DNA from: Prevotellaceae bacterium
GTDB taxonomy: Bacteria > Bacteroidota > Bacteroidia > Bacteroidales > UBA932
Direction: 5' to 3'
DNA length: 11,589 nucleotides
Assembly (NCBI GenBank): GCA_031257455.1
Contig: JAIROQ010000097.1
Coordinates: 1 to 11,589, forward strand
This document shows positions 1 through 11,589 of this stretch, in pieces. Position 1 is the stretch's first letter. Each line of letters begins with the position of its first letter. The notes under the pieces were generated by a model. The model was not told where the DNA came from, did no database searches, and saw only the letters and a list, made by a program, of their open reading frames with translations. The translations under genes and the position numbers were made by a program.

Positions 1-356
1 TCGCCGCCGCAGAGGCTTATGGGGAAGTCGTTCCCGAAGCCATCGTGGAATTGCCGTCTTCCCTTTTTGAGGTAGAGGGTAAGCTGGAAGCGGGTTTATT
101 AACGGTCGGCAATATATTGACCATGACCGACTCGGACGGTAACCGCCTGAACGGCGTCATTGACGAAGTGCGTCATGACACGGTAGTAATGAATTTCAAT
201 CATCCACTGGCGGGGGAAGAGCTTTCTTTCAAAGGTACGATAGTCGCCGTGCGCGAAGCCACTACGGATGAATTGCTGCACGGGCTGTATGGCGAGAAAA
301 ACGCCGGCTGCAACTGCGACTGCCATTCCCAAGACTGCAGTAGTTGTAAGTCATAA
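1..356 (+). CDS. SlyD-like FKBP-type peptidyl-prolyl cis-trans isomerase, 3' part
   Basis: The gene enters from the left edge; the reading frame is open from base 3, so 117 residues remain and the true start lies outside the window. The GTG at 45 is internal. The visible protein begins with AEAYGEVVPEAIV, matching the SlyD/FKBP segment AYGE...VP, and continues through an insert-in-flap-like region to NFNHPLAGEELSFKGTIVAVREAT, the conserved C-terminal strand of SlyD-type FKBPs. It ends in a Cys/His-rich tail (CNCDCHSQDCSSC), resembling the metal-binding tail of SlyD. Family members are cytosolic prolyl isomerases and chaperones, and some bind nickel. The last codons (AAG TCA TAA) lie within a 7-bp tandem array (AGTTGTA, AGTCATA, AGTCG), so the repeat supplies the stop codon. 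It converges with the HAD hydrolase gene. The family is clear; whether the metal tail is functional is inferred. Confidence 0.9.
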   Translation, partial: AAAEAYGEVVPEAIVELPSSLFEVEGKLEAGLLTVGNILTMTDSDGNRLNGVIDEVRHDTVVMNFNHPLAGEELSFKGTIVAVREATTDELLHGLYGEKNAGCNCDCHSQDCSSCKS

Positions 357-409
357 GTCGCGGCAGGCGCATTGTTTAAGGTTTAAGGTTTAAGGTTTAA
401 GGTTTGAGG
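342..409. repeat. Composite heptad repeat between slyD-like and HAD genes
   Basis: Two 7-bp arrays flank a GC-rich spacer. The left one (342-360) reads AGTTGTA AGTCATA AGTCG. The spacer is GCGGCAGGCGCATTG-like (about 360-374). The right one (375-409) has four TTTAAGG units and one TTTGAGG. The slyD-like stop codon (354-356) is in the left array and the HAD stop codon (397-399, minus strand) is in the right one, so both convergent genes end inside the repeat. The same two families, with a related spacer (CGACAAGCGCACTG), recur at 9731-9853, there with the TTTAAGG family inverted. Confidence 0.9.
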
Positions 410-1032
410 TTTTCAGCCAACTCATAATTCAGGAAATTGGGAATAATGGTATCAACGTATGGGGAAAGCGCTTCTGCCGGAAGGGTGGTGGAAAGACCAA
501 TCACTTTCATGCCGGCTTTTTTCCCGGCGGTGATGCCGGCTATAGAATCTTCGAACACTATACACGCTTCCGGCGATACGCGGAGTTCTCCGGCGGCCAG
601 CAGGTAGCACATCGGGTCGGGTTTGCTGCGGGTAATTTTGTCGGCCGTGATGAGGGCGTCAAAGGTATTTTGCAAATTCATTCTCTGCAGGGCGACTTTC
701 ATTTTTTCGTCCGGCGAACTGGTAACTACCGCTATTTTGTAGCCCTGCGACTTAAAGCGGGTTATCGCTTCGCGTGCGCCGGGAATGAACGTGTAATTCA
801 TTTGCCGTTCATAGCGCCGGTGTTCTTCTATGATTTTTTCCCGTTCCGCCGGCAGGCAGTTTCCAAAATATTTTTCCATGATAGCCGTCAGCGTAGCGCC
901 TTTGATAAGGGCGACAAAATTTTCCTGTAAATGATATTTCGCCGCCAACCGGTCGAAAAACAAGTCGTATTGCGGCTCCGTATCGGCAATCACGCCATCA
1001 AAGTCAAAGAGAATAGCTGTAAACCGGTTCAT
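397..1032 (-). CDS. HAD-superfamily hydrolase (beta-phosphoglucomutase/phosphatase-like, subfamily IA)
   Basis: A 211-residue cytosolic enzyme with all four HAD motifs. Motif I is DFDGVIAD at residues 10-17 (nucleophile D10, acid/base D12). Motif II is VVTSS around 102-106. Motif III is the lysine K137 in SKPDP. Motif IV is VFEDS, with E161 and D162. Residues 18-90 form the helical cap typical of beta-phosphoglucomutase and phosphoglycolate phosphatase relatives. The motifs show phosphoryl-transfer chemistry on a small phosphorylated metabolite; the substrate cannot be read from the sequence. The gene starts 31 bp downstream of gmk with no terminator between, so co-transcription with gmk is likely. 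Its C-terminus (NLKP) and stop are encoded inside a TTTAAGG-family heptad array (CCTCAAA CCTTAAA on the coding strand). The last residues may therefore be repeat-derived rather than conserved. Confidence 0.93.
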   Translation of the reverse strand: MNRFTAILFDFDGVIADTEPQYDLFFDRLAAKYHLQENFVALIKGATLTAIMEKYFGNCLPAEREKIIEEHRRYERQMNYTFIPGAREAITRFKSQGYKIAVVTSSPDEKMKVALQRMNLQNTFDALITADKITRSKPDPMCYLLAAGELRVSPEACIVFEDSIAGITAGKKAGMKVIGLSTTLPAEALSPYVDTIIPNFLNYELAENLKP

Positions 1033-1063
1033 GTAGAATTTTCAGGTTAAAATTGTTTTTTCA

Positions 1064-1696
1064 TTACTTCTTTTCCTTTTGCAAAAATTCCGCGACCAAT
1101 GTTTCCGCTTCTTTCAACGTTTTTTCCAAGTGGTCGTTTATAATTATTTTGTCGAATTGCGGCGCGCAGGAAAGTTCTTCCTTTGCTTTCCGCAAGCGGC
1201 GTTCAATGGCTTCGGGGGTATCGGTGTTGCGGTTTTGTAACCGTTCGCGCAATACATCCACAGAGGGCGGTTGTACAAACACGGCCAACGCCCGGTTGCC
1301 TAATGTTCGTTTTATATTCAAGCCTCCTTTCACGTCCACGTCACATAGCAATACCCGGCCTTTTCCCCAAACCCGTTCGGCTTCGCTTTTTGTTGTCCCG
1401 TAATAGTTTCCGGCATAGACTTCTTCCCATTCCAAAAATTCATTGCGGGCGATTTTTTCGCGGAATGCTTCGGGCGTCATAAAATAATAATCCATGCCGT
1501 CTTTTTCATTCCCGCGCGGCGCACGGCTTGTAGCCGATATGGAAAATTCAAGCGCCGGAAATTTTCCCAACAAATGGTGGACAATCGTTGTTTTTCCCGC
1601 ACCGGACGGCGCGGAGAAAATGAGTACTTTCCCTTTGCTGTCAAGGGAAGCGTCAAAGCATTTTTGCCGGATGGTATTTTCCTTTTTGCGTATCAT
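1064..1696 (-). CDS. gmk: Guanylate kinase
   Basis: Guanylate kinase converts GMP and ATP to GDP and ADP in cytosolic purine nucleotide synthesis. The 210-residue protein has a P-loop (APSGAGKTT, residues 29-37). The GMP-binding stretch SATSRAPRGNEKDGMDYYF lies at 54-72, EEVYAGNYYGT at 91-101, and the lid arginines in ERRLRKAKEEL at 165-175. About 22 residues precede the first beta-strand (VLIFSAP), more than in most bacterial Gmk proteins. No other ATG, GTG or TTG lies in frame before the P-loop, so the ATG ending at 1696 is the only reasonable start. That ATG is only about 8 bases beyond the gapA terminator T-tract, and I see no TAnnTTTG box for it in the preceding intergenic bases. Transcription may come from read-through of gapA. 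The HAD gene follows in the same direction. Confidence 0.97.
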   Translation of the reverse strand: MIRKKENTIRQKCFDASLDSKGKVLIFSAPSGAGKTTIVHHLLGKFPALEFSISATSRAPRGNEKDGMDYYFMTPEAFREKIARNEFLEWEEVYAGNYYGTTKSEAERVWGKGRVLLCDVDVKGGLNIKRTLGNRALAVFVQPPSVDVLRERLQNRNTDTPEAIERRLRKAKEELSCAPQFDKIIINDHLEKTLKEAETLVAEFLQKEKK

Positions 1697-1704
1697 AGTC
1701 TATT

Positions 1705-1735
1705 AAAAAACCCGCCCCGATAAGAGGCGGGGTTT
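1705..1735 (-). terminator. Intrinsic terminator after gapA, abutting gmk
   Basis: On the minus strand CCCGCC (1731-1726) pairs with GGCGGG (1716-1711) across a 9-base loop. Outer A-T pairs beyond a one-base bulge extend the stem, and six T residues (1710-1705) follow. This is a strong rho-independent terminator shape for gapA. Because A residues also lie on the other side it could act in both directions. The T-tract ends 8 bases before the gmk start codon, so it may also act as an attenuator of gmk. Confidence 0.85.
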
Positions 1736-1779
1736 CTTATCCCTGTTACTGCATCCTTTTACAAGGAATACAGGTTGGT

Positions 1780-2805
<1,026 letters not shown>

Positions 2806-2828
2806 TTAAACTTTATTTTTGAAGTGGA

Positions 2829-2860
2829 CAAAGGTAGCATTTTTTTTAATTTCCAGCAAA
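2829..2860 (-). promoter_or_regulatory. Bacteroidetes-type promoter of gapA
   Basis: Read on the minus strand, a TTTG box (2860-2857) is followed after 20 bases by TACCTTTG (2836-2829). This matches the -33 TTTG and -7 TAnnTTTG consensus of the Bacteroidetes primary sigma factor. Transcription would start near 2822, leaving a leader of about 35 bases before the gapA ATG. Confidence 0.85.
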
Positions 2861-2870
2861 TAAAATCATC

Positions 2871-2885
2871 ACCGGAAAATCCGGT
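2871..2885. promoter_or_regulatory. Palindrome just upstream of the gapA promoter
   Basis: ACCGGA AAA TCCGGT is a perfect 6-bp inverted repeat with a 3-base centre. It begins 10 bases upstream of the gapA -33 box, a position where activators or repressors commonly bind. No T-tract follows on either strand, which argues against a terminator. The binding protein, if any, is unknown. Confidence 0.4.
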
Positions 2886-2916
2886 AACCTGATAATACAA
2901 GACTACCTCCGGCATT

Positions 2917-2942
2917 AAAAAAGCGGTAAGTTTATTTACCAC
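2917..2942 (-). terminator. Intrinsic terminator overlapping the stop codon of the small HTH gene
   Basis: On the minus strand GTGGTAA (2942-2936) pairs with TTACCGC (2929-2923) across a 6-base loop, with one G-T pair, and six T residues follow (2922-2917). The TAA stop codon (2938-2936) is itself part of the left stem arm, so terminating ribosomes would sit on the hairpin. It separates this gene from gapA. Confidence 0.8.
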
Positions 2943-3199
2943 TTAATATGATTTTCTTCCAAAATTTTTTTCGCAAGGTTCAATATGGTCGCATCATCGA
3001 ACAGCACTATACCGCCGCCGGGACCTTGCTCATAGTGCAGGCCGGACGACTTGCCGCGTTCAAAATCATTGCCGCCAAAATAATTGCGGATAGTATCTAC
3101 GGAGGTATTCAGTAATTCCGCAATACGGTGTGTACTTCCGGTCGGCAGTGCGTCTTTGATGCGACGCAGCTCATTAAATGTGATTGTTGCTCCTTCCAT
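2936..3199 (-). CDS. Small helix-turn-helix DNA-binding protein
   Basis: An 87-residue soluble protein. Residues about 21-42 (STHRIAELLNTSVDTIRNYFGG) read as a helix-turn-helix: a helix, a turn at NTS, and a recognition helix DTIRNYF. The middle (residues 43-66) is glycine-rich and basic, and the C-terminus (ATILNLAKKILEEN) is helical. Similar short DNA-binding proteins are, as I recall, common in Bacteroidales, but I know of no assigned function. It could be a transcription regulator or a nucleoid-associated factor. It lies between nfeD and gapA on the same strand, 66 bp after nfeD, and has its own terminator. An 11-bp palindrome TTAACGGTTAA (3210-3220) lies just upstream of its start and could be an autoregulatory site. 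I see no good TAnnTTTG promoter directly ahead of it. Confidence 0.75.
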   Translation of the reverse strand: MEGATITFNELRRIKDALPTGSTHRIAELLNTSVDTIRNYFGGNDFERGKSSGLHYEQGPGGGIVLFDDATILNLAKKILEENHIKW

Positions 3200-3265
3200 G
3201 GTTTTAAAATTAACGGTTAAAATAAATTTTAAAGTAAAACTTTATTCCGAATAATAAATTATTTT

Positions 3266-4645
3266 TTAATCCTTCACAGCGCAATACAGTTGCCCTGTTT
3301 CATAGTGCGTGATAACGACTATGGTGTTTTTTTCAATCATTCCGTGTTCGGCTATGGCGTCATACATTTCGCCGTCCACTTCAATTTTGCCGGATGGCCG
3401 CAACGAAGTGCAAGCCCTGCCCATCTGCCCGACCAATGCTTCCAGACCGGCCGGTACGCCTACATAACCGGTCGTTCCCGAAAGGTCTGTTTTCAATGCA
3501 ATTCTTCCAAACATTTTTGTATGATATATTTTTTTTGACAAATAAATACCGCCCGCAATGCCGCCAAACATGCCCGCCGATACAATAAATAAAGGTTGGG
3601 CAAGCGGACTTAAATCCCATCTTTCCGGCGCAGAAAATAAATTATTGTCAATCATAGCCAGCGCCAAACCCGCTATACATAACAGAATGCCGGAGATGCC
3701 GGCAACGCCGAAACCCGGAATAACAAAAATTTCCAACCCCACTAAAACCAGTCCCGCCACAAACAGCAGCAATTCCCAATAGTCCGCCAATCCTTCCAGA
3801 TAGAGGGGGGCAAAGTAAAGCAAGGTCGCCGTTACCGCCACCGCCAACGGAAATCCGATGCCCGGCGACTGCAATTCAAAATAAATCCCGCCGATGATGC
3901 ACATCAGCAAAAGCCCTTGCAGCAGGGGGTTCATAAGAAATAAAATAATCCTGTCCAACCACGAAGGACGATACTCTTTTATTTCGGCAGGAGCAATTCC
4001 CGCCAATGACAATACTTCGTTAATACTTTCCGCTTTCCCTTCGCTGTAGCCGGAAGCATACGCTTCATCAGCCGTAAAGGTGAGTACTTTGGCGCTGTCG
4101 ATTAAGCCGGGTACTACCACGCGCGGATCTACCATAGCTTCGGCAATCAGCGGGTCGCGGCGCCAGACTTCCACCGTGTCGCGCCCTTGCAGGATTTTCC
4201 GCTTGCCGTGCATTTCTGCGGTGGATCGCATCATTGAGCGCATGAATGACTGGTATTTGTCGGGCAATGCTTCGCCGGTTTGATTGACTACCGTGGCTGC
4301 GCCGATGCTTCCGCCGCCGCGTATGTAGATGCTGTCGCATGCCAGCGCTATCAGCGCACCCGCCGAAGCGGCTTCGTTGTCGATAAACGCCAACACCGGA
4401 ATGCCGCAGTACAAAAGGGCAGTGCGGATACTGTCGGCTGCCGCCAATTCGCCTCCATAGGTATTCAAATGCAATAAAACATAGTCGCTGTTCCATTGGC
4501 GCGCTTCCTGTAATCCTTTATTGATAATACGCACAGCAGGCGCATCGATGTCCTGCTGAAGATGTATGACGTAAACCACTTTATTTTCCGCATAACTTAA
4601 CGCAGCTGTAAACAGGAAGACAAGGAGAAAAAAACTACGGCGCAT
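3266..4645 (-). CDS. NfeD-family membrane-bound serine protease (ClpP-class), long form
   Basis: The 459-residue protein has a signal peptide (residues 1-19, ending SYA) and a ClpP/SppA-like protease domain (about 23-215). It then has a cluster of four to five hydrophobic segments (about 231-375) and a C-terminal OB-fold NfeD domain (about 385-457). The candidate nucleophile is S94 in EAASAGA, in the usual ASAG context. The likely general-base lysine is K130 in LPDKYQSFMRSMMR. IAEAMVDPRV (168-177) is a hallmark of this family. Long NfeD proteins are periplasmic-facing proteases that usually act with stomatin/SPFH proteins and can cleave the stomatin C-terminus. No stomatin gene is adjacent here. 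A Bacteroidetes promoter lies directly upstream. The family assignment is firm; the substrate is unknown. Confidence 0.94.
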   Translation of the reverse strand: MRRSFFLLVFLFTAALSYAENKVVYVIHLQQDIDAPAVRIINKGLQEARQWNSDYVLLHLNTYGGELAAADSIRTALLYCGIPVLAFIDNEAASAGALIALACDSIYIRGGGSIGAATVVNQTGEALPDKYQSFMRSMMRSTAEMHGKRKILQGRDTVEVWRRDPLIAEAMVDPRVVVPGLIDSAKVLTFTADEAYASGYSEGKAESINEVLSLAGIAPAEIKEYRPSWLDRIILFLMNPLLQGLLLMCIIGGIYFELQSPGIGFPLAVAVTATLLYFAPLYLEGLADYWELLLFVAGLVLVGLEIFVIPGFGVAGISGILLCIAGLALAMIDNNLFSAPERWDLSPLAQPLFIVSAGMFGGIAGGIYLSKKIYHTKMFGRIALKTDLSGTTGYVGVPAGLEALVGQMGRACTSLRPSGKIEVDGEMYDAIAEHGMIEKNTIVVITHYETGQLYCAVKD

Positions 4646-4667
4646 TATCTTTGAAAAGTATTTTTCC

Positions 4668-4698
4668 CAAAGTTAGGAAAATTTATTGATACTACGAA
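4668..4698 (-). promoter_or_regulatory. Probable promoter of the nfeD-type gene
   Basis: On the minus strand TAACTTTG (4675-4668) fits the -7 box TAnnTTTG. TTCG (4698-4695), one mismatch from TTTG, stands 19 bases upstream. The -7 box ends 22 bases before the ATG, so the mRNA leader would be only about 15 bases. Confidence 0.65.
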
Positions 4699-4710
4699 TT
4701 TTTATCGAGG

Positions 4711-4745
4711 CATTAGAATTTGTGTGCAACACACCAATTCTAATG
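4711..4745. repeat. Long hairpin in the nfeD/fabG divergent region
   Basis: CATTAGAATT (4711-4720) and AATTCTAATG (4736-4745) are exact reverse complements. Inside them GTGTG (4722-4726) pairs with CACAC (4730-4734) around CAA, with one T/C mismatch between the two stems. This gives 15 of 16 paired positions and a 3-base loop. No T-tract follows on either strand, and no transposase is near. It could be an operator, a relic of a small element, or an RNA structure. Confidence 0.6.
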
Positions 4746-4810
4746 TCCCCCCTGAACAAAGTTAAAAACCGTCCGCGAAGGCTCGGTAGCGCAATGGAAA
4801 CGCAGGCGTT

Positions 4811-4850
4811 CTTCACGCTTTACGCTTTACTCTTTACGCTTCACCTTTAA
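4811..4850. repeat. ACGCTTT-family heptad array upstream of fabG
   Basis: Degenerate 7-bp units (CACGCTT, TACGCTT, TACTCTT, TACGCTT, CACCTTT) end 12 bases before the fabG -7 box, so the array occupies the place of the -33 region. Confidence 0.7.
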
Positions 4851-4861
4851 CTTTTTTTTTA

Positions 4862-4869
4862 TACCTTTG
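4862..4869 (+). promoter_or_regulatory. -7 box of the fabG promoter
   Basis: TACCTTTG matches TAnnTTTG exactly and lies 31 bases before the fabG ATG. No TTTG stands 19-21 bases upstream; that position is inside the ACGCTTT heptad array. The -33 element is therefore weak or replaced. Confidence 0.65.
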
Positions 4870-4900
4870 TCCTGTTATAATTTTAAAAACGAATGAATAT

Positions 4901-5647
4901 ATGAAATTATTAGAAGGAAAAACGGCCATTGTTACCGGCGCCGCGCGCGGAATTGGCAAAGCGGTAGCCTTACGTCTGGCGCAGGAAGGCTGTGCCATTG
5001 CATTCACCGATTTGGCCATTGACGAGAATGCGAAAAAAACCGAATCGGAACTGCTGGCATTGGGCGTAAAAGCAATAGGCTATGCCTCGAATGCCGCGAA
5101 ATTCACCGAAACGCAACAAGTGGTCGATACGATAGTAAAAGATTTTGGGCGGATAGACATTTTAATTAACAATGCCGGCATCACGCGTGACGGGCTGCTG
5201 CTGCGCATGAGCGAGGAACAGTGGGATGCGGTAATTACCGTGAACCTGAAATCGGCGTTCAACTTCACGCGCGCCGTAGCGCCGGTGATGGTGCGCCAGC
5301 GGTCGGGAAGTATCGTCAACATGAGTTCCGTAGTAGGCGTATCGGGCAATGCGGCGCAAGCCAACTATGCGGCTTCCAAAGCCGGCATGATAGGGCTGGC
5401 CAAATCGGTTGCCAAAGAATTGGGGTCGCGCGGTATCCGTTGCAATGCCATTGCGCCGGGCTTCATCATCACCGAAATGACGCACCAACTGTCCGATGAA
5501 ATTCGCGAAAAATGGATGGAAACAATTCCCCTGCGCCGCGGCGGTACGCCGGAAGATGTGGCAAATGTCGCACTCTTCCTTGCCTCCGACCTCTCGGCAT
5601 ACGTCAGCGGACAGGTAATACCCGTCTGCGGCGGAATGAACGCTTGA
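4901..5647 (+). CDS. fabG: 3-oxoacyl-[acyl-carrier-protein] reductase
   Basis: A 248-residue short-chain dehydrogenase that reduces 3-oxoacyl-ACP to 3-hydroxyacyl-ACP in type II fatty acid synthesis. The nucleotide-binding motif TGAARGIG is at residues 12-19 and NNAG at 90-93. The catalytic tetrad is N115, S143, Y156 and K160 (YAASK). The segment PGFIITEMT and the C-terminal YVSGQVIPVCGGMNA are typical FabG. The length is normal and the start follows an A/T-rich leader (TATATG). D37 follows the second beta-strand, where many NADPH-dependent FabG proteins have a small residue, so cofactor preference cannot be taken for granted; as I recall, other Bacteroidales FabG proteins share this. No other fatty-acid genes are adjacent. 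The stop codon is 3 bases before an ATTTACAG array. Confidence 0.95.
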   Translation: MKLLEGKTAIVTGAARGIGKAVALRLAQEGCAIAFTDLAIDENAKKTESELLALGVKAIGYASNAAKFTETQQVVDTIVKDFGRIDILINNAGITRDGLLLRMSEEQWDAVITVNLKSAFNFTRAVAPVMVRQRSGSIVNMSSVVGVSGNAAQANYAASKAGMIGLAKSVAKELGSRGIRCNAIAPGFIITEMTHQLSDEIREKWMETIPLRRGGTPEDVANVALFLASDLSAYVSGQVIPVCGGMNA

Positions 5648-5650
5648 GGA

Positions 5651-5811
5651 ATTTACAGATTTACAGATTTACGGATTTACAGATTTGGCTGACGCCACGA
5701 ACAGTGAACAGTGAACAGTGAATAGTGAATAGTGAACAATAGGCTGACGCGCCAGCCCATCAGAAATTAGAAATCAAAAATTAGAAATCAGAAATCAAAA
5801 ATTAGAAATAA
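5651..5811. repeat. Composite repeat between fabG and the DUF6340-like gene
   Basis: Five modules follow one another. An ATTTACAG octad array of 4.5 copies lies at 5651-5686. Hinge GGCTGACGCC follows at 5687-5696. AGTGAAC heptads (about five units, some AGTGAAT) span 5701-5738. The near-palindromic hinge GGCTGACGCGCCAGCC is at 5742-5757. Seven GAAATYA/AAAATTA heptads lie at 5763-5811. The last unit shares its final A with the ATG at 5811. The stretch 5674-5715 is identical to 7008-7049 (42 bases), so this locus and the one before the lipoprotein gene derive from one composite. Confidence 0.92.
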
Positions 5812-6791
5812 TGAAAAGACTTACGACTATATTCGTCCTTTTGCTGTGGGCGGTGGCAGCAACGGCGGCAGATGATTATCGCGTGGTATCGCTGCAGGTG
5901 TTAAAGCCGGCCCGGCAACCGGTGGAATTTACGGGTCGTACGCCGGCTATCTACGCCATGCTGTATGTTACGGATACCAACGGCGAGCGGCATACTTTCC
6001 GCAACGATAGCCTGCATACCGTTGAAGCGGCCATCGGTATCAAGGAAACGCTGGAGGAATTTGAAGCGCTGGCCGACTATGACGTGCCGGTATATAATTT
6101 TTACGCCTTTTGCGCAGACACAACCGCCTGTGCCGACCACATCGAAGTCATCACGGATAACGATTTGCTCATCCTCGTAAAAAATATTACCGTAACGCCG
6201 TTCCAGCAAGTCGAGCGGCGTTATACGGACAGTTACGGCGACTATTTTTATGCAGGAAGTTATGCGGTTTACACGGCCGCCTTTGCAGTGTACGACACGA
6301 TTACCCATACCTATTCCCATACGGAAACCCTGTCGGATACGCTGATGTGGGACAAAAACACCCTGAATACGGAACAGGCGCTGGCCGAACTGCCCTCGAC
6401 TGCGGAAGCCGCACAATTCGCCGCTGCCGAAGCAGGGAAATTATATGCCCGCCGGTTAGCGCCCTATTGGCTCACGGTACAACGTTTCTTCTTCGTGCCG
6501 TCCTATAAGGATTTGCAACAGGCGGCGACCCACGCTGAAAACTCCGAATGGAATGAAGCCATGAAAATCTGGGAACAGTATGCCGGACACAATAACCGCA
6601 AAACCGCTGCACAATCGGCATTCAATATGGCGCTGGCGTGCGAAGTCAATGGCGACTATGAACTCGCGCTGGAATGGTTGCAGTATGCCGAAAAATTATA
6701 TCCTGTCAAAGAAATTGCCGGATACCGTACTATCCTTCAACGGCGGCTCAACGAAAGCGCGAATTTGGAAAAACAGTTGCAGGATTTATAA
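5811..6791 (+). CDS. Secreted TPR-containing protein, DUF6340-like
   Basis: A 326-residue protein with a Sec signal peptide (residues 1-20, MKRLTTIFVLLLWAVAATAA) and no lipobox cysteine, so probably periplasmic. Residues 23-190 form a mixed beta-rich region with no catalytic motif that I recognise. EAGKLYARRLAPYWLTVQRFFF (about 207-228) resembles the conserved segment of the Bacteroidales DUF6340 family. Residues 232-315 read as two to three TPR-like helical pairs (AENSEWNEAMKIWEQY, AAQSAFNMALACEVNGDYELALEWLQYAEKLYP), implying protein-protein contacts. The function is unknown. Its ATG is formed at the edge of a heptad array, so the whole leader is repeat DNA. No TAnnTTTG promoter is visible upstream. 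The promoter of the following tRNA gene overlaps its 3' end. Confidence 0.8.
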   Translation: MKRLTTIFVLLLWAVAATAADDYRVVSLQVLKPARQPVEFTGRTPAIYAMLYVTDTNGERHTFRNDSLHTVEAAIGIKETLEEFEALADYDVPVYNFYAFCADTTACADHIEVITDNDLLILVKNITVTPFQQVERRYTDSYGDYFYAGSYAVYTAAFAVYDTITHTYSHTETLSDTLMWDKNTLNTEQALAELPSTAEAAQFAAAEAGKLYARRLAPYWLTVQRFFFVPSYKDLQQAATHAENSEWNEAMKIWEQYAGHNNRKTAAQSAFNMALACEVNGDYELALEWLQYAEKLYPVKEIAGYRTILQRRLNESANLEKQLQDL

Positions 6792-6807
6792 AAATTCAAT
6801 ACCTTTG
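6776..6807 (+). promoter_or_regulatory. Promoter of tRNA-Thr, overlapping the end of the upstream gene
   Basis: TACCTTTG (6800-6807) is an exact -7 box, and GTTG (6776-6779), one mismatch from TTTG, stands 20 bases upstream. The -33 box lies inside the last codons of the DUF6340-like gene. The -7 box ends 13 bases before the mature tRNA 5' end, leaving a very short 5' leader. Confidence 0.75.
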
Positions 6808-6820
6808 CAGCCCTTTTATT

Positions 6821-6892
6821 GCCTCCTTAGCTCAGCGGTAGAGCAGCTCATTCGTAATGAGCAGGTCGTCGGTTCAAATCCGATGGGAGGCT
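6821..6892 (+). tRNA. tRNA-Thr (anticodon CGT)
   Basis: The 72-base sequence folds as a cloverleaf. The acceptor stem is GCCTCCT with GGGAGGC (one G-T pair), and the D arm contains AGCTCAGCGGTAGAGC. The anticodon stem is GCTCA/TGAGC around loop TTCGTAA, giving anticodon CGT for threonine codon ACG. The T arm is GTCGG-TTCAAAT-CCGAT. The discriminator is T and CCA is not encoded. The 3' trailer runs straight into a heptad array and then an intrinsic terminator. Confidence 0.96.
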
Positions 6893-6896
6893 CGGA

Positions 6897-6945
6897 GAAT
6901 TAGGAATTAGAAATTAGAAATTAGGAATTAAGAATCAGGAATTAA
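6897..6945. repeat. Seven-copy AAATTAG heptad array after tRNA-Thr
   Basis: Seven uninterrupted 7-bp units: GAATTAG twice, AAATTAG twice, GAATTAA, GAATCAG, GAATTAA. They fill the interval between the tRNA and its terminator hairpin, so they should be present in the tRNA precursor's 3' trailer. Confidence 0.95.
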
Positions 6946-6975
6946 AGAGGCTTTGCGGGATGCAGAGCTTTTTTT
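6944..6975 (+). terminator. Intrinsic terminator of the tRNA-Thr transcript
   Basis: GCTTTGC (6950-6956) pairs with GCAGAGC (6962-6968), with one G-T pair and loop GGGAT, followed by seven T residues (6969-6975). Upstream A-rich bases can extend the stem into the T-tract. Confidence 0.85.
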
Positions 6976-6992
6976 AATGTAAGGGAATACGG

Positions 6993-7136
6993 ATTTATAG
7001 ATTTACAGATTTACAGATTTGGCTGACGCCACGAACAGTGAACAGTGAATAGTGAACAGTGTGCCGGCGCCAGCCCTATTCAAAATTCAAAATTGCCGGC
7101 GCGTCAGCAAATCAGAAATTAGAAATCAGAAATTAT
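6993..7136. repeat. Composite repeat upstream of the lipoprotein gene
   Basis: The modules in order are ATTTACAG octads (6993-7020), hinge GGCTGACGCC (7021-7030), AGTGAAC heptads (7034-7060), hinge GCCGGCGCCAGCC (7063-7075), ATTCAAA heptads (7078-7094), hinge GCCGGCGCGTCAGC (7095-7108), and AAATCAG/AAATTAG heptads (7109-7136). The final unit, AAATTAT, contributes the first two bases of the ATG at 7135. Compared with the locus at 5651-5811 it has an extra ATTCAAA module and hinge. Confidence 0.92.
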
Positions 7137-8289
7137 GACTAAAAAAAACTTTCAACTTTCAACTTTCAATTTTCAATTAAAAATCCTGCTTGTCTTGCTG
7201 CTGTTCTTTTCCTGCCGTTCGCCGGAGAGGAAGGGGGAAGCGGGTTTTGAGACATACTACCAGCCCGCGCACGCCAACGGGTTTTATCTGGAAAAAAAAG
7301 ACGACAACAAACTGCTGCATGTCTTCAATCCCTGGCAGGGGGCGGAAAATATGGAGTTATTATATCACCTGCGCCCGCGCGAAAGATTTCATGATACGCT
7401 GCCGGTAAATTGTATTCCGGTGCCGGTGCGGCGTGCCGTATGTTTGTCCACTTCGCACGTGGCTTTTATTGACTGCATCGGGCAAACCCCTACGATTGCC
7501 GGCGTCTCGGGCGCGGGCTACATCACCAACCCTGCTATCCTTGAACGCATAGCCGCCGGCGAAGTGCGGGATGTGGGATACGAAACGTTGCTCTCTTACG
7601 AAACCATCGTCTCCCTGCAACCTGACGTGGTCTTCGCCTACGGCATCCATGACGAAATGGCGGCCGTTACCGGCAAGCTGAACGAAATGGGCATACGGGT
7701 GGTATATTTAGCCGACTATTTGGAAGAAACCGTACTGGGAAAAGCGGAATATATGGTAGCCGTAGCGGCATTTTTCCAACAGGAAGACGCCGCTATTGAC
7801 CGGTTTGCGGGCATCGTGCGCAACTACGAAGCCATCGCGGCGAAAGTACGCGCCGCCGCGCCGCCCAAAGTGATAATGAACGCCCCCTGGCGCGACACAT
7901 GGTATATGCCCGGCGCAGACAACTACATGAACAAATTAATTACCGATGCCGGCGCACAAATCATCGGGTTACGCAGCGGGCGCAACAGTACGCCGCTGAG
8001 TCTGGAAAGCGCCTACATTTACGCCATGCAAGCCGCCTACTGGCTACACCCCAACGCTTACCGCACCCTGCATGAACTGGAAACCGCCGACCCCCGCTTT
8101 GCCCGCACGCCGGCATTTATGACAAAAAAAATATACAACAACACCCGCCGCCTTACGCCCGGCGGCGGCAGCGACTTCTGGGAGTCAGGAGTGGTGTATC
8201 CCGATGTGGTGTTGAAAGATTTGGTACGCATCTTTCATCCCGACATTTTTCCGGAACATGAATTAGTTTACTATGAACAATTGCTGTAA
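7135..8289 (+). CDS. ABC-transporter substrate-binding lipoprotein, BtuF/FepB-like (iron complex or cobalamin)
   Basis: The 384-residue protein has a lipoprotein signal peptide: hydrophobic ILLVLLLFF, then the lipobox FFS-C27, so it should be lipid-anchored. Residues about 98-375 fit the periplasmic-binding fold of the iron-siderophore/cobalamin class (Peripla_BP_2). Landmarks are RRAVCLSTSHVAFIDCIG (N-lobe start), DVGYETLLSYETIVSLQPDVVFAYG (strand and helix of the ligand cleft) and AAPPKVIMNAPWRDTWYMPGADNYMNKLITDAGA (C-lobe). Permease and ATPase genes are not in the window, so the ligand is uncertain. Residues 5-15 (NFQLSTFNFQL) are encoded by a 7-bp tandem array starting exactly at codon 5. 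ATG 7135 is the only start that keeps a signal peptide. The 3' end overlaps the queA-type gene by 17 bases. No promoter is recognised between the tRNA terminator and the ATG. Confidence 0.88.
   Translation: MTKKNFQLSTFNFQLKILLVLLLFFSCRSPERKGEAGFETYYQPAHANGFYLEKKDDNKLLHVFNPWQGAENMELLYHLRPRERFHDTLPVNCIPVPVRRAVCLSTSHVAFIDCIGQTPTIAGVSGAGYITNPAILERIAAGEVRDVGYETLLSYETIVSLQPDVVFAYGIHDEMAAVTGKLNEMGIRVVYLADYLEETVLGKAEYMVAVAAFFQQEDAAIDRFAGIVRNYEAIAAKVRAAAPPKVIMNAPWRDTWYMPGADNYMNKLITDAGAQIIGLRSGRNSTPLSLESAYIYAMQAAYWLHPNAYRTLHELETADPRFARTPAFMTKKIYNNTRRLTPGGGSDFWESGVVYPDVVLKDLVRIFHPDIFPEHELVYYEQLL
7147..7181 (+). repeat. AACTTTC heptad array inside the lipoprotein signal peptide
   Basis: Three exact AACTTTC units, then AATTTTC and AATTAAA, translated as NFQLSTF followed by NFQL. 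A 7-bp unit repeats its reading every 21 bases, giving a seven-residue peptide period. The unit contains no stop triplet in any of the three sense frames. Its reverse complement (GTTGAAA) contains TGA and forms the array at the end of the neighbouring queA-type gene. Confidence 0.93.
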
Positions 8290-9487
8290 ACCGCTGCCGG
8301 AAATACCCGATATCCGAATAGCCGACTATGATTATCCCCTGCCTGACGAACGCATTGCCCGGTTTCCAGCGGCACAGCGCGACCGGGCAAAACTCTTGAC
8401 ATACGCCGCCGGAAATATCGGACACACGGTATTTACGGAACTGCCGGCATTGCTGCCGCCCCATTCATTACTCGTATTTAACGAAACGAAAGTCATTCCG
8501 GCACGGTTGCTTTTCCGAAAAGATACCGGCGCTGTCATAGAAATATTTTGCCTGGAACCGTTATTGCCCGCCGGCTACGAAGCCTGCTTTGCCGCTACGG
8601 AATCATGCGAATGGCGCTGTCTGGCCGGCCACAGCAAGCGTTGGAAAAGCGGACGGCTATACCTTTCCTTCGGGGAATATGTCCTGTCGGCTGAATGGCT
8701 GGAAAAGCAGACCGGCAGCGTGCGGGTGCGGTTTGCGTGGAACGGAAACGCTTCGTTTGCGCAAGTTCTGGAGCAGTGCGGCCAGACCCCTCTCCCACCC
8801 TATTTGAAACGCGATGCGCTGCCGGAAGATACAGTGCGCTATCAAACGATATATGCCCGTTACAACGGCTCGGTGGCCGCGCCTACTGCCGGGCTGCACT
8901 TTTCGCCGGCCGTACTCGGCGAACTGGCGCAACGCGGCATTGCGTCCGAAACCCTGACCCTGCACGTAGGCGCGGGAACATTCCGCCCCGTTAAATCGGA
9001 AACCATTGCCGCGCATGTCATGCACGGCGAGCCGTTCACCGTCAGCCGCCGCGCACTGCAAAACATACTGGCGCATACAGGCAATATCATTGCCGTAGGA
9101 ACTACCGCTACCCGCGCGCTGGAAAGCCTTTACTTTCTGGGGGTGCAATGCCTGCACGGGCAACCGCCGGAAGCAGTAGCCCAATGGGAACCCTACCGCG
9201 CCGCGTACCATGCCGCCCCGCAGGAAGCATTACAGGCGCTATTGCAATACATGGAAAATAATCAATTGGAGAACCTGCACGCCGTTACCCGACTACTCAT
9301 TGCCCCGCCCTACCCTTTCAGGACAGTCAGCGGGATGGTGACCAACTTCCACCAGCCCCAAAGCACGCTGCTACTATTGGTCAGCGCATTCATCGGCGAA
9401 GACTGGCGGCGCGTATATCGCTATGCCCTGCAAAATGATTTCCGGTTTTTAAGCTACGGCGACAGCTCGTACTTAATTAAAAGTTGA
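8273..9487 (+). CDS. queA: QueA-type S-adenosylmethionine:tRNA ribosyltransferase-isomerase
   Basis: The enzyme class transfers and isomerises the ribosyl group of SAM onto 7-aminomethyl-7-deazaguanine in tRNA to make epoxyqueuosine. The protein has 404 residues. Landmarks are ADYDYPLPDERIARFP (18-32), LLVFNETKVIPARL (66-79), RYQTIYARYNGSVAAPTAGLHF (189-210), LHVGAGTFRPV (229-239), AHVMHGEPF (247-255), GTTATRALESL (276-286) and TNFHQPQSTLLLLVSAF (357-373). It is longer than the roughly 350-residue canonical enzyme and reads NFHQP where canonical QueA has NFHLP. As I recall, Bacteroidales often carry a second, longer QueA-like protein, and this may be that form, so its exact reaction is less certain than its family. 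The start at 8273 overlaps the lipoprotein gene by 17 bases; no other ATG, GTG or TTG precedes the conserved region. The stop codon lies in a GTTGAAA heptad array. Confidence 0.9.
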   Translation: MNNCCKPLPEIPDIRIADYDYPLPDERIARFPAAQRDRAKLLTYAAGNIGHTVFTELPALLPPHSLLVFNETKVIPARLLFRKDTGAVIEIFCLEPLLPAGYEACFAATESCEWRCLAGHSKRWKSGRLYLSFGEYVLSAEWLEKQTGSVRVRFAWNGNASFAQVLEQCGQTPLPPYLKRDALPEDTVRYQTIYARYNGSVAAPTAGLHFSPAVLGELAQRGIASETLTLHVGAGTFRPVKSETIAAHVMHGEPFTVSRRALQNILAHTGNIIAVGTTATRALESLYFLGVQCLHGQPPEAVAQWEPYRAAYHAAPQEALQALLQYMENNQLENLHAVTRLLIAPPYPFRTVSGMVTNFHQPQSTLLLLVSAFIGEDWRRVYRYALQNDFRFLSYGDSSYLIKS

Positions 9488-9595
9488 AAATTGAAAATTG
9501 GGCTGGCGCGTCAGCAACTCATAATTTTTTATTTCTGATTTCTAATTTCTGATTTGCTGGCGCGCCAGCCTATTCAACATTCAAAATTCAAAATT
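9476..9595. repeat. Composite repeat at the end of the queA-type gene
   Basis: Heptads ATTAAAA GTTGAAA ATTGAAA ATTG (9476-9500) contain the stop codon TGA (9485-9487). Hinge GGCTGGCGCGTCAGC (9501-9515) follows. TTTCTGA/TTTCTAA heptads (9531-9555) are the inverted form of the AAATTAG family at 5763 and 7109. The perfect 14-bp palindrome GCTGGCGCGCCAGC is at 9556-9569, and ATTCAAA heptads end the block (9571-9595). The order is largely that of 7063-7136 with modules rearranged and inverted. Confidence 0.9.
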
Positions 9596-9727
9596 AACGC
9601 GGAGCGGAGCGAAGTCGAGGAATCTCCTGCTACGCCCCACAGTCTGACCTAAGCTGCTTGCGTTTTGGAGCAGATTTCTCCACGCGCCCGCTCGTCCCTC
9701 GCGGGCTTGGTCGAAATGACGGCGTTG
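9596..9727. repeat. GC-rich inverted-repeat module in the queA-pepD gap
   Basis: This is the non-tandem part of the 420-bp gene-free interval 9488-9907. GAGGAATCT (about 9617-9625) is matched in inverted form by AGATTTCTC (9672-9680) with one mismatch. GCCCGC (9686-9691) and GCGGGC (9701-9706) form a 6-bp stem. The edges read GCGAAGTCGAGG and TTGGTCGAAATGACG. It looks like an imperfect long palindrome of the kind dispersed in bacterial genomes. I see no promoter, start codon with coding context, or T-tract in it. Whether it has other copies in the genome is not visible here. Confidence 0.5.
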
Positions 9728-9730
9728 TTT

Positions 9731-9853
9731 AGTCGTAAGTCATAAGTCATTAGTCGTAAGTCGTAAGTCACGACAAGCGCACTGCTGCAAATTGCAACCT
9801 CAAACCTTAAACTTTAAACTTTAAACCTTAAACTTTATTCTTTATTCTTTTTT
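9731..9853. repeat. Composite heptad repeat upstream of pepD
   Basis: AGTCGTA/AGTCATA heptads of about 5.7 copies (9731-9770) are followed by spacer CGACAAGCGCACTG (9771-9784). After a short stretch come eight heptads from 9798 to 9853: CCTCAAA, CCTTAAA, CTTTAAA twice, CCTTAAA, CTTTATT twice, CTTTTTT. The last unit overlaps the pepD -33 box (9851-9854). It is a relative of the locus at 342-409, with the second array in opposite orientation. Confidence 0.92.
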
Positions 9854-9881
9854 GTAAAAAGTATATCTTTTCGTATCTTTG
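9851..9881 (+). promoter_or_regulatory. Bacteroidetes-type promoter of pepD
   Basis: TTTG (9851-9854), 19 bases, then TATCTTTG (9874-9881): an exact match to the -33/-7 consensus. Transcription would start near 9888, about 20 bases before the ATG. The -33 box is built partly from the final unit of the CTTTATT/CTTTTTT heptad array. Confidence 0.88.
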
Positions 9882-9907
9882 TTATGTATCCTTAAAAATG
9901 TACGATA

Positions 9908-11350
9908 ATGAAAACACTGACTCCCTCCCTTGTATTTGCCTATTTCATGGAGATATGCCGGGTGCCGCGCCCGTCTAAACATGAAGAAAAAATCATTGCT
10001 TACCTGCTCCGCTTTGCAGACAGCCATTGCCTGCCCGCCCGCCGGGACGAGGCCGGAAATGTATTGATAACAAAAGCGGCTACTGCCGGCATGGAAAAAA
10101 AACCGGTTGTCATACTGCAAAGCCACGTGGATATGGTTTGCGAAAAAAATGCCGGCACGGAGCATGATTTTTTCAAAGACGCCATCCAGCCTTATATTGA
10201 CGGCGACTGGATAAAGGCGCGCGGTACTACGCTCGGCGCAGATTGCGGTATTGGCGTGGCGGCGCAGTTGGCCTTGCTTGCCTCCGAAGAGGTGTCGCAT
10301 GGTCCGCTGGAATGCCTCTTCACGGTGGATGAAGAAACCGGCCTTTCCGGCGCTGCGGCCTTGAAGCCGGGCTTTTTGTCCGGCAATATTCTGCTGAACC
10401 TCGACTCCGAAGACGAAGGCGAATTGTTTATCGGCTGTGCCGGCGGCATAGATACGACCGCTACTTTCACCTGCCAGCCCGAACGGCCGCCGGAAGGAGC
10501 GGTTGCTTTTACCGCCGCCATCAGCGGTCTTGCCGGCGGCCATAGCGGGGACGACATCAATAAGCGCCGCGCCAATTCCAATAAACTGCTGGCTCGTTTC
10601 CTCTGGCAGGCGCAGCAGCAATGCGCCATCCGTTTAGCGCATTTTTCCGGCGGCAACCTGCACAATGCTATTCCGCGCGAAGCCGTAGCCGTATTTACGG
10701 TGGACGAAAAAGCAACCGGTGTTTTGCAACAACTGTTTGCGCAACATGCCGGCGAAATCGAGAACGAATGGAAAGCCGCAGAGCCCCACCTCGAACAGAC
10801 GTTGAAAAAAACCGCATTGCCGGCGCACGTCATCGACCAGCATACGCAGCGGCATCTGCTGAATGCGCTCTACGCTTGTCCGAACGGCGTGATGGCCATG
10901 AGCCACACGATAGACAACCTTGTGGAAACATCCACCAATCTGGCATCGGTGAAATGCACGGAAGACCATAAAATCATTGTCGCAACCAGCCAGCGCAGCG
11001 CTGTCGAAAGCGCCAAGCGCGATATGGCGCGTATGGTCGAAATCGTTTTTGCGGAAGCCGGCGCAACGGTTACGCATGGCGATGGCTATCCGGGCTGGAC
11101 GCCCCGTCCCGACTCGGCGATTTTACAAACAACCGTTCAGGCCTACCGCACCCTGTTCCACACAGAGCCGAAAGTAAAAGCCGTCCATGCCGGACTGGAA
11201 TGCGGCCTGTTCCTCGAAAAGTACCCGCACCTGGATATGGTATCCTTTGGCCCCACCATTCGCGGCATGCACTCGCCGGACGAACGGCTGGACATAAAAA
11301 GCGTGCAAAAATTCTGGGATTTGCTGGTAGAAGTCTTGCGGAAAGTATGA
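9908..11350 (+). CDS. pepD: Aminoacyl-histidine dipeptidase / cytosolic non-specific dipeptidase (peptidase M20)
   Basis: A 480-residue cytosolic metallopeptidase that cleaves dipeptides of broad specificity, full length for PepD. The di-zinc centre is readable. H73 lies in LQSHVDM, with D75 as the usual supporting residue. The bridging D112 is in TTLGADCGIG. The catalytic glutamate E142 and ligand E143 are in FTVDEETGL. D166 is in LNLDSED and H455 in GMHSPDER. The segment ELFIGCAGGID (172-182) is typical of PepD. The lid/dimerisation domain occupies about residues 205-385. The gene has its own promoter. Its stop codon TGA (11348-11350) is part of an AGTATGA heptad array, and a bidirectional terminator follows. 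The neighbours give no functional link. Confidence 0.96.
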   Translation: MKTLTPSLVFAYFMEICRVPRPSKHEEKIIAYLLRFADSHCLPARRDEAGNVLITKAATAGMEKKPVVILQSHVDMVCEKNAGTEHDFFKDAIQPYIDGDWIKARGTTLGADCGIGVAAQLALLASEEVSHGPLECLFTVDEETGLSGAAALKPGFLSGNILLNLDSEDEGELFIGCAGGIDTTATFTCQPERPPEGAVAFTAAISGLAGGHSGDDINKRRANSNKLLARFLWQAQQQCAIRLAHFSGGNLHNAIPREAVAVFTVDEKATGVLQQLFAQHAGEIENEWKAAEPHLEQTLKKTALPAHVIDQHTQRHLLNALYACPNGVMAMSHTIDNLVETSTNLASVKCTEDHKIIVATSQRSAVESAKRDMARMVEIVFAEAGATVTHGDGYPGWTPRPDSAILQTTVQAYRTLFHTEPKVKAVHAGLECGLFLEKYPHLDMVSFGPTIRGMHSPDERLDIKSVQKFWDLLVEVLRKV

Positions 11351-11396
11351 GGTATGAAGTATGAAGTATGAGGTATGAGTTGGCTGGCGCCGGCGT
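11344..11396. repeat. AGTATGA heptad array and GC hinge at the end of pepD
   Basis: Five uninterrupted units (AGTATGA, GGTATGA, AGTATGA twice, GGTATGA; 11344-11378) are followed by the hinge GGCTGGCGCCGGCG (11382-11395). The first unit contributes the pepD stop codon TGA. Degenerate TTACGCT-like units follow to about 11418. Confidence 0.92.
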
Positions 11397-11430
11397 ACTT
11401 TACACATTACGCTTTACCAAATAAAAATAA

Positions 11431-11462
11431 AAAAATTCAAAGGCATACCCCTTTGAATTTTT
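11431..11462. terminator. Bidirectional intrinsic terminator between pepD and the right-edge gene
   Basis: AAAAATTCAAAGG (11431-11443) and CCTTTGAATTTTT (11450-11462) form a perfect 13-bp stem with a 6-base loop, A-rich on one side and T-rich on the other. It can therefore end transcripts from both convergent genes. The right arm contains the last unit of the AAAGATTT octad array. Confidence 0.85.
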
Positions 11463-11486
11463 AAATTTTTAAATCTTTAAATCTTT
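11455..11486. repeat. AAAGATTT octad array at the end of the right-edge gene
   Basis: Read on the minus strand there are four 8-bp units: AAAGATTT twice, AAAAATTT and AAAAATTC. The first unit begins with the last base of that gene's TAA stop codon, and the last unit forms an arm of the terminator hairpin. Confidence 0.85.
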
Positions 11487-11589
11487 TATTGCGTTGCTTC
11501 GTCCAGAATTTTGGAATAACGTTCAAAGTCTGCCAGCATTTCGGGCGATTGTTCGCGGAAACGGTAGCAAATATTTTTCAGGAATTGCA
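11486..11589 (-). CDS. 3' end of an unidentified protein gene
   Basis: The minus strand is open from the right edge to TAA at 11488-11486, giving 33 C-terminal residues, including CYRFREQSPEMLADF and ending ERYSKILDEATQ. The sequence is hydrophilic and probably helical. I do not recognise the family from so short a piece. It counts as coding because the codon use resembles the neighbours, the other two minus-strand frames are closed, and a convergent terminator lies just downstream. Its stop codon abuts an octad array. Confidence 0.65.
   Translation of the reverse strand, partial: QFLKNICYRFREQSPEMLADFERYSKILDEATQ

Follow-up and report, generated by a model that had tools for sequence, protein, structure and literature searches.

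Dispersed 7- and 8-bp tandem arrays at the stop codons of a Prevotellaceae genome: spreading repeats have probably overrun tolerant gene ends

The short tandemly repeated repetitive (STRR) sequences of filamentous cyanobacteria reportedly consist of heptanucleotide units in tandem, and heptanucleotides are said, in work by Mazel in 1990 and Mrazek in 2007, to predominate among long simple sequence repeats (LSSR). Here we describe tandem arrays of 7- and 8-bp units that overlap stop codons in a Prevotellaceae bacterium, and for these arrays closer counterparts exist. Direct repeats of TAACTGA occur in Beggiatoaceae, some cyanobacteria and five Bacteroidetes according to MacGregor 2015 (PMC4679880), where forward repeats give stops in all three frames, 13 sets in the Beggiatoaceae study overlap the stop of the upstream gene, and protein ends are noted to tolerate the repeats. 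The GGGAATC and GGGGA(C/T)T heptamers of Xanthomonas and Nostoc show, in Rehm et al. 2015 (PMC4692102), a strong bias toward positions near or over stop codons. Elements of the repetitive extragenic palindromic (REP) and miniature inverted-repeat transposable element (MITE) types are, according to a review (PMC2229807), dispersed and mostly intergenic, some being fused to gene ends, and the 155-bp element of Neisseria, which carries stops in every frame, almost never lies within open reading frames (ORFs). Stops at gene ends that work in any frame are therefore, given MacGregor 2015 (PMC4679880) and Rehm 2015 (PMC4692102), not a new idea.

The stretch of DNA analyzed here (the window; 11,589 nucleotides) is the entire contig JAIROQ010000097.1 (C176) of assembly GCA_031257455.1, a genome of 1,586,482 bp in 225 contigs that is 80% complete (G000). 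Together with 80 further stretches of the same genome it made up a sample of 597,245 bp, 8,252 of these N. The reading that we favor, with a probability of about 0.7, is that spreading repeats overran tolerant gene ends and that the stops are an arithmetical consequence. Dispersed intergenic repeats with 7- or 8-bp units, in dozens of families and often with GC-rich linkers of about 10 to 30 bp, would have undergone a recent expansion in a single lineage of the genus, adding DNA between genes. An array at a 3' end may run into the gene up to the last residues that matter; since neither 7 nor 8 is divisible by 3, an array with a stop in the sense direction would then close the reading frame after some three units, leaving the stop inside the array and the tail of the protein encoded by it. 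Near 5' ends or within genes, survival would be limited to units or orientations that present no stop in sense. Most of the pattern would on this reading come from purifying selection, with no benefit of the stops needed, and the arrays presumably spread by slippage plus copying between sites.

Arrays were called with Tandem Repeats Finder (TRF), at a score of 30 or more in the window and of at least 40 in the genome-wide sample. The sample gave 241 rows of period 7, 146 of period 8, 19 of period 9 and one each of periods 5 and 6, versus 42 rows over all periods in one first-order Markov shuffle that served as the chance control; among the 40 shuffled rows listed by period, none had a period of 7, 8 or 9. 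The 7- and 8-bp arrays therefore exceed chance. With overlaps removed, there were 379 arrays of period 7 or 8 in 66 unit families, and 398 arrays in 82 families for periods 7 to 9. Array density, compared in sampled stretches of four genomes, followed a gradient that was observed directly: 642 per Mb in G000, 434 in its relative G001, 142 in G005 and 46 in G006, where the rows show no specificity for period 7. Three copies of the common unit AAGTCGT (up to 2 mismatches) matched 129 times in G000, 226 in G007, 9 in G001, 6 in G005 and 3 in G002, with zero matches in G003, G004, G006 and G008 and, among 31 other genomes, matches only in G025 (10); the reversed control gave 2 matches, both in G039. 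Three copies of GAACAGT (up to 2 mismatches) were present in 11 of 119 genomes of the order, and the reversed control matched 13 times in G045 and once in G092. The 11 include G060 (63 matches) and G062 (16), distant genomes of other families of the order, in which the GAACAGT unit likewise forms arrays and the reversed pattern gave zero.

That the arrays are an artefact of assembling a fragmented metagenome bin is hardly credible. In its favor, the genome is in 225 contigs, and an array lies within 150 bp of 30 of 161 contig ends (81 G000 records) versus 7.2% of interior windows; yet arrays are found in four bins (G000, G001, G005 and G007), many of them inside contigs and in frame with conserved genes. 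It is rather the arrays that probably break the assembly.

Comparison with the described systems brought out both likenesses and differences. Like the TAACTGA system (PMC4679880), G000 has heptamer arrays that are mostly intergenic and that take a stop-free orientation inside genes; unlike it, where one unit lies mostly just upstream of starts, G000 has 82 families of 7 to 9 bp, GC linkers and more arrays at stops than at starts. TAACTGA was absent among the 60 of 66 unit families listed, and a majority upstream of starts was not found, the array being nearer the stop side in 53 of 75 tandem gaps and nearer the start side in 22. The heptamers of Rehm et al. (PMC4692102) are likewise mostly extragenic and near or over stops, scarce between divergent genes and variable among close relatives; they are G-rich and quadruplex-forming, of one unit type with a strand preference, whereas the G000 units are of many kinds and mostly A+T-rich (mean 31% G+C), with no resemblance to G-tract units such as GGGAATC. 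With STRR and LSSR, which belong to other taxa, the arrays have in common 7-bp tandem units far above chance, dispersed and mostly intergenic (320 of 398).

Genes were called with a simple codon-usage caller (389 genes), whose starts are less certain than its stops and which may have missed small genes. Besides the 320 arrays fully outside called genes, 64 were partly within and 14 inside. Arrays overlapped 57 stop codons and 7 start codons (370 of each), an asymmetry observed directly, and array edges peaked between 10 nt before and 10 nt after the stop end. For a placement null, each block was shifted within its own gap, with an intrusion of 25 bp allowed on both sides, in 2000 runs; the placement tests take in 49 of the 57 stop overlaps, those in gaps between two called genes. 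Start overlaps numbered 7 versus a null mean of 21.3 (minimum 11), and edges within 10 nt of a start 27 versus 30.1. Blocks touching neither gene lay on average in mid-gap (mean relative position from the stop, 0.491; n = 55), also when tandem gaps only were considered (0.487; n = 37; 13, 3, 3, 9 and 9 by fifths from the stop). The stop association is real; to a good extent it arises because arrays fill short gaps and are tolerated at stops, whereas starts do not tolerate them. Arrays overlap the start, or lie within 10 nt of it, in 29 of 370 genes, which speaks for regulatory elements at transcript ends or starts that act on stability, termination or translation, as proposed for the Beggiatoaceae TAACTGA repeats. 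We consider such a role very improbable, since the units are many and unrelated and stand in both orientations, and since orthologous sites carry a different unit or no array.

The earlier note on this DNA had also suggested that the arrays are favored at gene ends as fail-safe terminators, whose frame-independent stops would catch frameshifted or read-through ribosomes. Its arithmetic holds, in that no frame stays open through repeats of a 7- or 8-bp unit containing a stop, but only on the strand that bears the stop: among the 82 families, stops are present on both strands in 30, on one in 36 and on neither in 16. Units with shuffled bases gave similar counts (23.2, 44.6 and 14.2), so that stops in the units are not much above the expectation from base composition; random intergenic k-mers carry fewer stops (both strands 14.6%, one 39.5%, none 45.9%), but their G+C content is 41% versus 31%. 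Where an array overlaps a gene stop, sense-only outnumbered antisense-only stops 18:1, because the reading frame and the code force this, and frame-dictated orientation of this kind was observed directly. Outside the forced overlap there was no clear preference (8:4 at 0 to 30 nt downstream and 7:10 farther, both small numbers), and 11 of 32 first arrays at 0 to 30 nt downstream lack a sense stop, ATTTACAG after fabG among them, as read from its sequence. Four arrays lie within 90 nt of a gene start, and none has a sense stop; two of their units are stop-free on both strands and hence uninformative on orientation. Eight arrays lie deeper within genes; those of period 7 (four) lack a sense stop, and a stop triplet is contained in the unit of two of the four period-9 arrays, where the period allows it to stay out of frame. 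At arrays, genes end in TAA, TGA and TAG 30, 17 and 10 times, versus 188, 57 and 68 elsewhere, TGA being somewhat commoner at arrays. The lack of a clear orientation preference, the arrays without a sense stop just downstream of genes, the mid-gap average of the non-overlapping blocks and the array-poor sister species, which manage without arrays, all argue against fail-safe terminators.

It had further been suggested that arrays may extend into genes as far as the conserved residues, with an alignment of the affected C-termini against orthologues as the means of checking. Unlike in the TAACTGA system, C-termini were compared here with those of relatives (G001, G005 and G006). Pairs came from the sampled stretches plus 52 targeted ends of 22 array-ended genes, chosen from the 34 longest of 45, so that the array set is not a random draw; left out were proteins below 120 residues, pairs below 50% identity, alignments starting beyond residue 25 and ends without a stop in the stretch. 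At least three C-terminal residues of the G000 protein were unaligned in 28 of 38 array pairs (27 genes) and in 19 of 100 control pairs (81 genes), with a Fisher p of 3.4e-9 to be read with the caution that pairs of the same gene are not independent, although each relative alone gave p below 0.002. Rewritten C-termini are thus a direct observation, and growth up to conserved residues is borne out, the units of sister species differing just past the conserved core. The tails are replaced and not regularly shortened (19 shorter, 14 longer and 5 equal in array pairs; 20, 20 and 60 in controls).

Single genes illustrate the replacement; we presume them to be Dxr-, UvrA-, AspS-, Pfk- and LptG-like, and their repeat units were judged by eye. 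The Dxr-like protein ends in QAREIVMRYEL within a TATGAGG-type array in G000 and in MARERGIKN within an AATTAAG-type array in G005; in G001 it ends in MAREV followed by a GC palindrome, and in G006 the end is longer, with array-like sequence past the stop. For the UvrA- and AspS-like genes the unit in G000 differs from that in G001, and none is evident in G005. At two gene ends G000 and G001 have a common unit (AATGGAG and GCAGTAG, by eye). QueA proteins all end shortly past FRFLSYGDSS: the array holding the stop is of the AATTGAA type in G000 and, in degenerate form, in G002, and of the GTTTAAG type in G001. In G003 to G006 and G008 the tails are longer, and no array is evident. A model of overrun, in which the distance to the first in-frame stop is predicted from the array sequence, fits the overlaps only roughly from 4 nt up.

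Several results weigh against overrun as the whole account. The tail lengths are mixed, as given above, and a first C-terminal comparison (13 array and 98 control pairs, other alignment method) gave no clear difference; it was superseded by the larger one, with more pairs and a single alignment method. QueA proteins from other families of the order can have tails of 3 to 4 residues without an array, so that short tails need no array. The C-terminus of PepD is about the same as in array-free relatives, and the LptG-like protein ends in IAPK in 4 of 4 genomes. Overlaps of only 1 to 3 nt are too frequent for the overrun model (14 versus 3.3; Kolmogorov-Smirnov p, 0.018), which indicates that overrun is mixed with arrays merely abutting a stop. 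The distance check against shuffled placement, which the earlier note had proposed, did show arrays closer to stops than expected: 71 edges lay within 10 nt of a stop versus a null mean of 44.9 (maximum 59), stop overlaps numbered 49 versus 32.8 (maximum 51), and 20 of 55 non-overlapping blocks were in the fifth of the gap closest to the stop, with the 25-bp intrusion of the null being the analyst's choice. A moderate excess at stops therefore remains, to which some attraction or selection at gene ends may contribute.

This excess over random placement is one of the points on the side of fail-safe terminators. Another is the Pfk-like protein, which ends in CMGD or CLGD in G005 and G006 and in CMGDFFEV in G000, the stop coming four residues later, in an array. 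In a PepD relative (L228) the usual stop is missing, and the gene reads on 27 residues past the G000 end and stops in a stretch that resembles, by eye, an AGTTGAA array, which makes it a naturally occurring example of an array as catch stop. Set against the orientation results, these cases leave a fail-safe function unlikely, and with respect to this claim the earlier note was not upheld.

Overrun by spreading repeats would also add DNA between genes. The fabG-DUF6340 gap is 163 bp in G000 and 52 bp in G005, where TRF lists no array and short array-like stretches are visible. Syntenic gaps with G000 arrays had a median of 159 bp versus 52 bp in G005 (n = 5) and of 171 versus 138 bp in G001 (n = 7; two shorter in G000); for G006 only 2 array-bearing gaps could be compared. 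Syntenic gaps without arrays were alike (33 versus 24, 15 versus 15 and 38.5 versus 51). Four of the seven G001 gaps also carry arrays, with no unit family in common with G000. Within G000, neighboring arrays (162 pairs lie within 60 bp of each other) are joined by short linkers rich in G+C, with a mean of 0.61 for lengths of 5 to 40 bp. The motif GCTGRCGC occurred in 116 of 777 array flanks versus 17 of 4926 background windows, and 104 of the 116 matches were 0 to 4 nt from the array edge. A 24-bp linker form (up to 3 mismatches) matched 86 times in G000, 8 in G007, 5 in G002, 3 in G004 and once in G001, all in the genus, with zero matches in the other 35 of 40 genomes searched, G005 included.

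The enrichment of GCTGRCGC at array edges, and the presence of the 24-bp linker 86 times in G000 and in few genomes else, are what would be expected of composite mobile elements, that is, array-linker-array mosaics copied as units like REP or MITE elements, with the GC linker recognized and gene ends serving as tolerated sites. This alternative is possible, and the strongest of those weighed here, but we think it less probable than overrun. Unlike REP and MITE elements, no fixed element, ends or transposase was identified for the arrays, nor was target duplication found, the search for ends not being systematic; moreover, the linkers connect many different units, and G005 bears arrays without a single 24-bp linker match. 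The Y1 transposase, with one copy each in G000 and G002 and none in G001, G005 and G007 (incomplete genomes), does not appear to track the arrays. RVT_1, with matches in G001, G002, G005 and G007 and none in G000, G003, G004, G006 and G008, was rejected, the most array-rich of the TRF-sampled genomes (G000, 80% complete) being without a match. Two reverse transcriptases of 378 residues in G002 and G007 (L303:1396-2532 and L304:988-2124) are alike by eye and have different neighboring ORFs; the G002 protein is like a group II intron reverse transcriptase, with a score below the model cut-off. Templated synthesis with wobble was discarded, transitions and transversions within 304 arrays (388/252) being ordinary. 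A single dispersing system, in which one copying activity lays arrays of many units, joins them at GCTGRCGC-type junctions, swaps families at gene ends and so steadily rewrites C-termini, is a speculative and rather doubtful possibility.

The earlier note knew of no such stop association in Bacteroidetes, which was too strong, since MacGregor 2015 (PMC4679880) lists five Bacteroidetes with TAACTGA, one set just past a stop. None of the papers listed in literature searches dealt with this genus. What is added here, as far as those listings go, is the multi-family nature of the units, the GC-rich linkers at array edges, the lineage-specific expansion and the comparison of rewritten C-termini. 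Sister species that differ in whether a given gene carries an array make up a natural experiment on the rewriting of protein ends by non-coding repeats, and a striking stop-codon association can evidently arise largely from reading-frame arithmetic plus purifying selection. Annotators should note that a C-terminal peptide shared by several proteins, RYEL for example, can be encoded by repeats and be no sign of homology. The most interesting question is the spread of units and linkers, the linkers at array edges pointing to a dispersal route for which no name was found.

Within the window, the following repeats and linkers were found; Rfam at gathering scores gave nothing there besides the tRNA.

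347..360, plus strand: two weak copies of TAAGTC(A/G) across the slyD stop (354-356), from the sequence; absent from the TRF listing
357..373, no strand: GC-rich linker-like spacer GTCGCGGCAGGCGCATT preceding the next array, from the sequence; likeness to a linker judged by eye
374..412, minus strand: 7-bp array, GTTTAAG on the plus strand, covering the final 16 bases of the HAD gene including its stop (397-399); TRF score 71
5651..5686, plus strand: 8-bp array of unit ATTTACAG, starting 3 bases past the fabG stop; sense strand stop-free (TRF, sequence)
5687..5698, no strand: GC linker GGCTGACGCCAC joining two arrays (sequence; linker motif)
5699..5738, plus strand: 7-bp array of GAACAGT (TRF)
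5742..5758, no strand: GC linker GGCTGACGCGCCAGCCC (sequence; linker motif)
5759..5809, plus strand: 7-bp array of AAATCAG/AAATTAG reaching the next start codon (5811) (TRF)
6897..6944, plus strand: 7-bp array downstream of the tRNA-Thr gene (6821-6893) (TRF)
6988..7135, plus strand: 8-bp and 7-bp arrays with GC linkers (TRF, sequence)
7147..7176, plus strand: 7-bp array of AACTTTC within the start of the periplasmic-binding-protein gene (7135-8289); sense stop-free (TRF)
9475..9500, plus strand: 7-bp array of AATTGAA across the queA stop (9485-9487); TRF score 38
9501..9595, no strand: mosaic of GGCTGGCGCGTCAGC (9501-9515), an array (9531-9555), GCTGGCGCGCCAGCC (9556-9570) and an array (9572-9595) (sequence, TRF)
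9731..9850, no strand: 7-bp arrays of AGTCATA, AACCTTA and CTTTATT upstream of pepD (TRF)
11345..11379, plus strand: 7-bp array of GTATGAG across the pepD stop (11348-11350), followed by GGCTGGCGCCGGC (11382-11394) (TRF)
11452..11488, minus strand: 8-bp array across the stop of the right-edge gene (11486-11488); TRF score 51

Five of the twelve stops in the window had been said to lie in arrays. Four (HAD, queA, pepD and the right-edge gene) are inside arrays listed by TRF; slyD brings the count to five of twelve, though its repeat is weak, has two copies and falls outside the TRF listing, in which the nearest array to the slyD stop starts at 374. That the five stops have five different units was correct, as was the placing of the fabG stop, which ends at 5647, 3 bases before an array begins at 5651. 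The repeat at the slyD stop matches the common G000 family AAGTCGT (22 arrays), and the SlyD C-terminus in G000, CSSCKS, extends one residue past those of four relatives (CSACH in G002, CSSCH in G001, CSTCR in G005 and CCNCN in G006). The HAD C-terminus was outside the comparison, with no orthologue among the relatives' loci examined. GC-rich, often palindromic linkers of the GCTGACGC and GCTGGCGCGCCAGC types stand at array edges at 5687-5698, 5742-5758, 9501-9515, 9556-9570 and 11382-11394. The N-terminal segment FQLSTFNFQL of the periplasmic-binding protein (7135-7176) is encoded by the stop-free AACTTTC array, and the start of the DUF6340 gene appears, by eye, array-like in G001 and G005.

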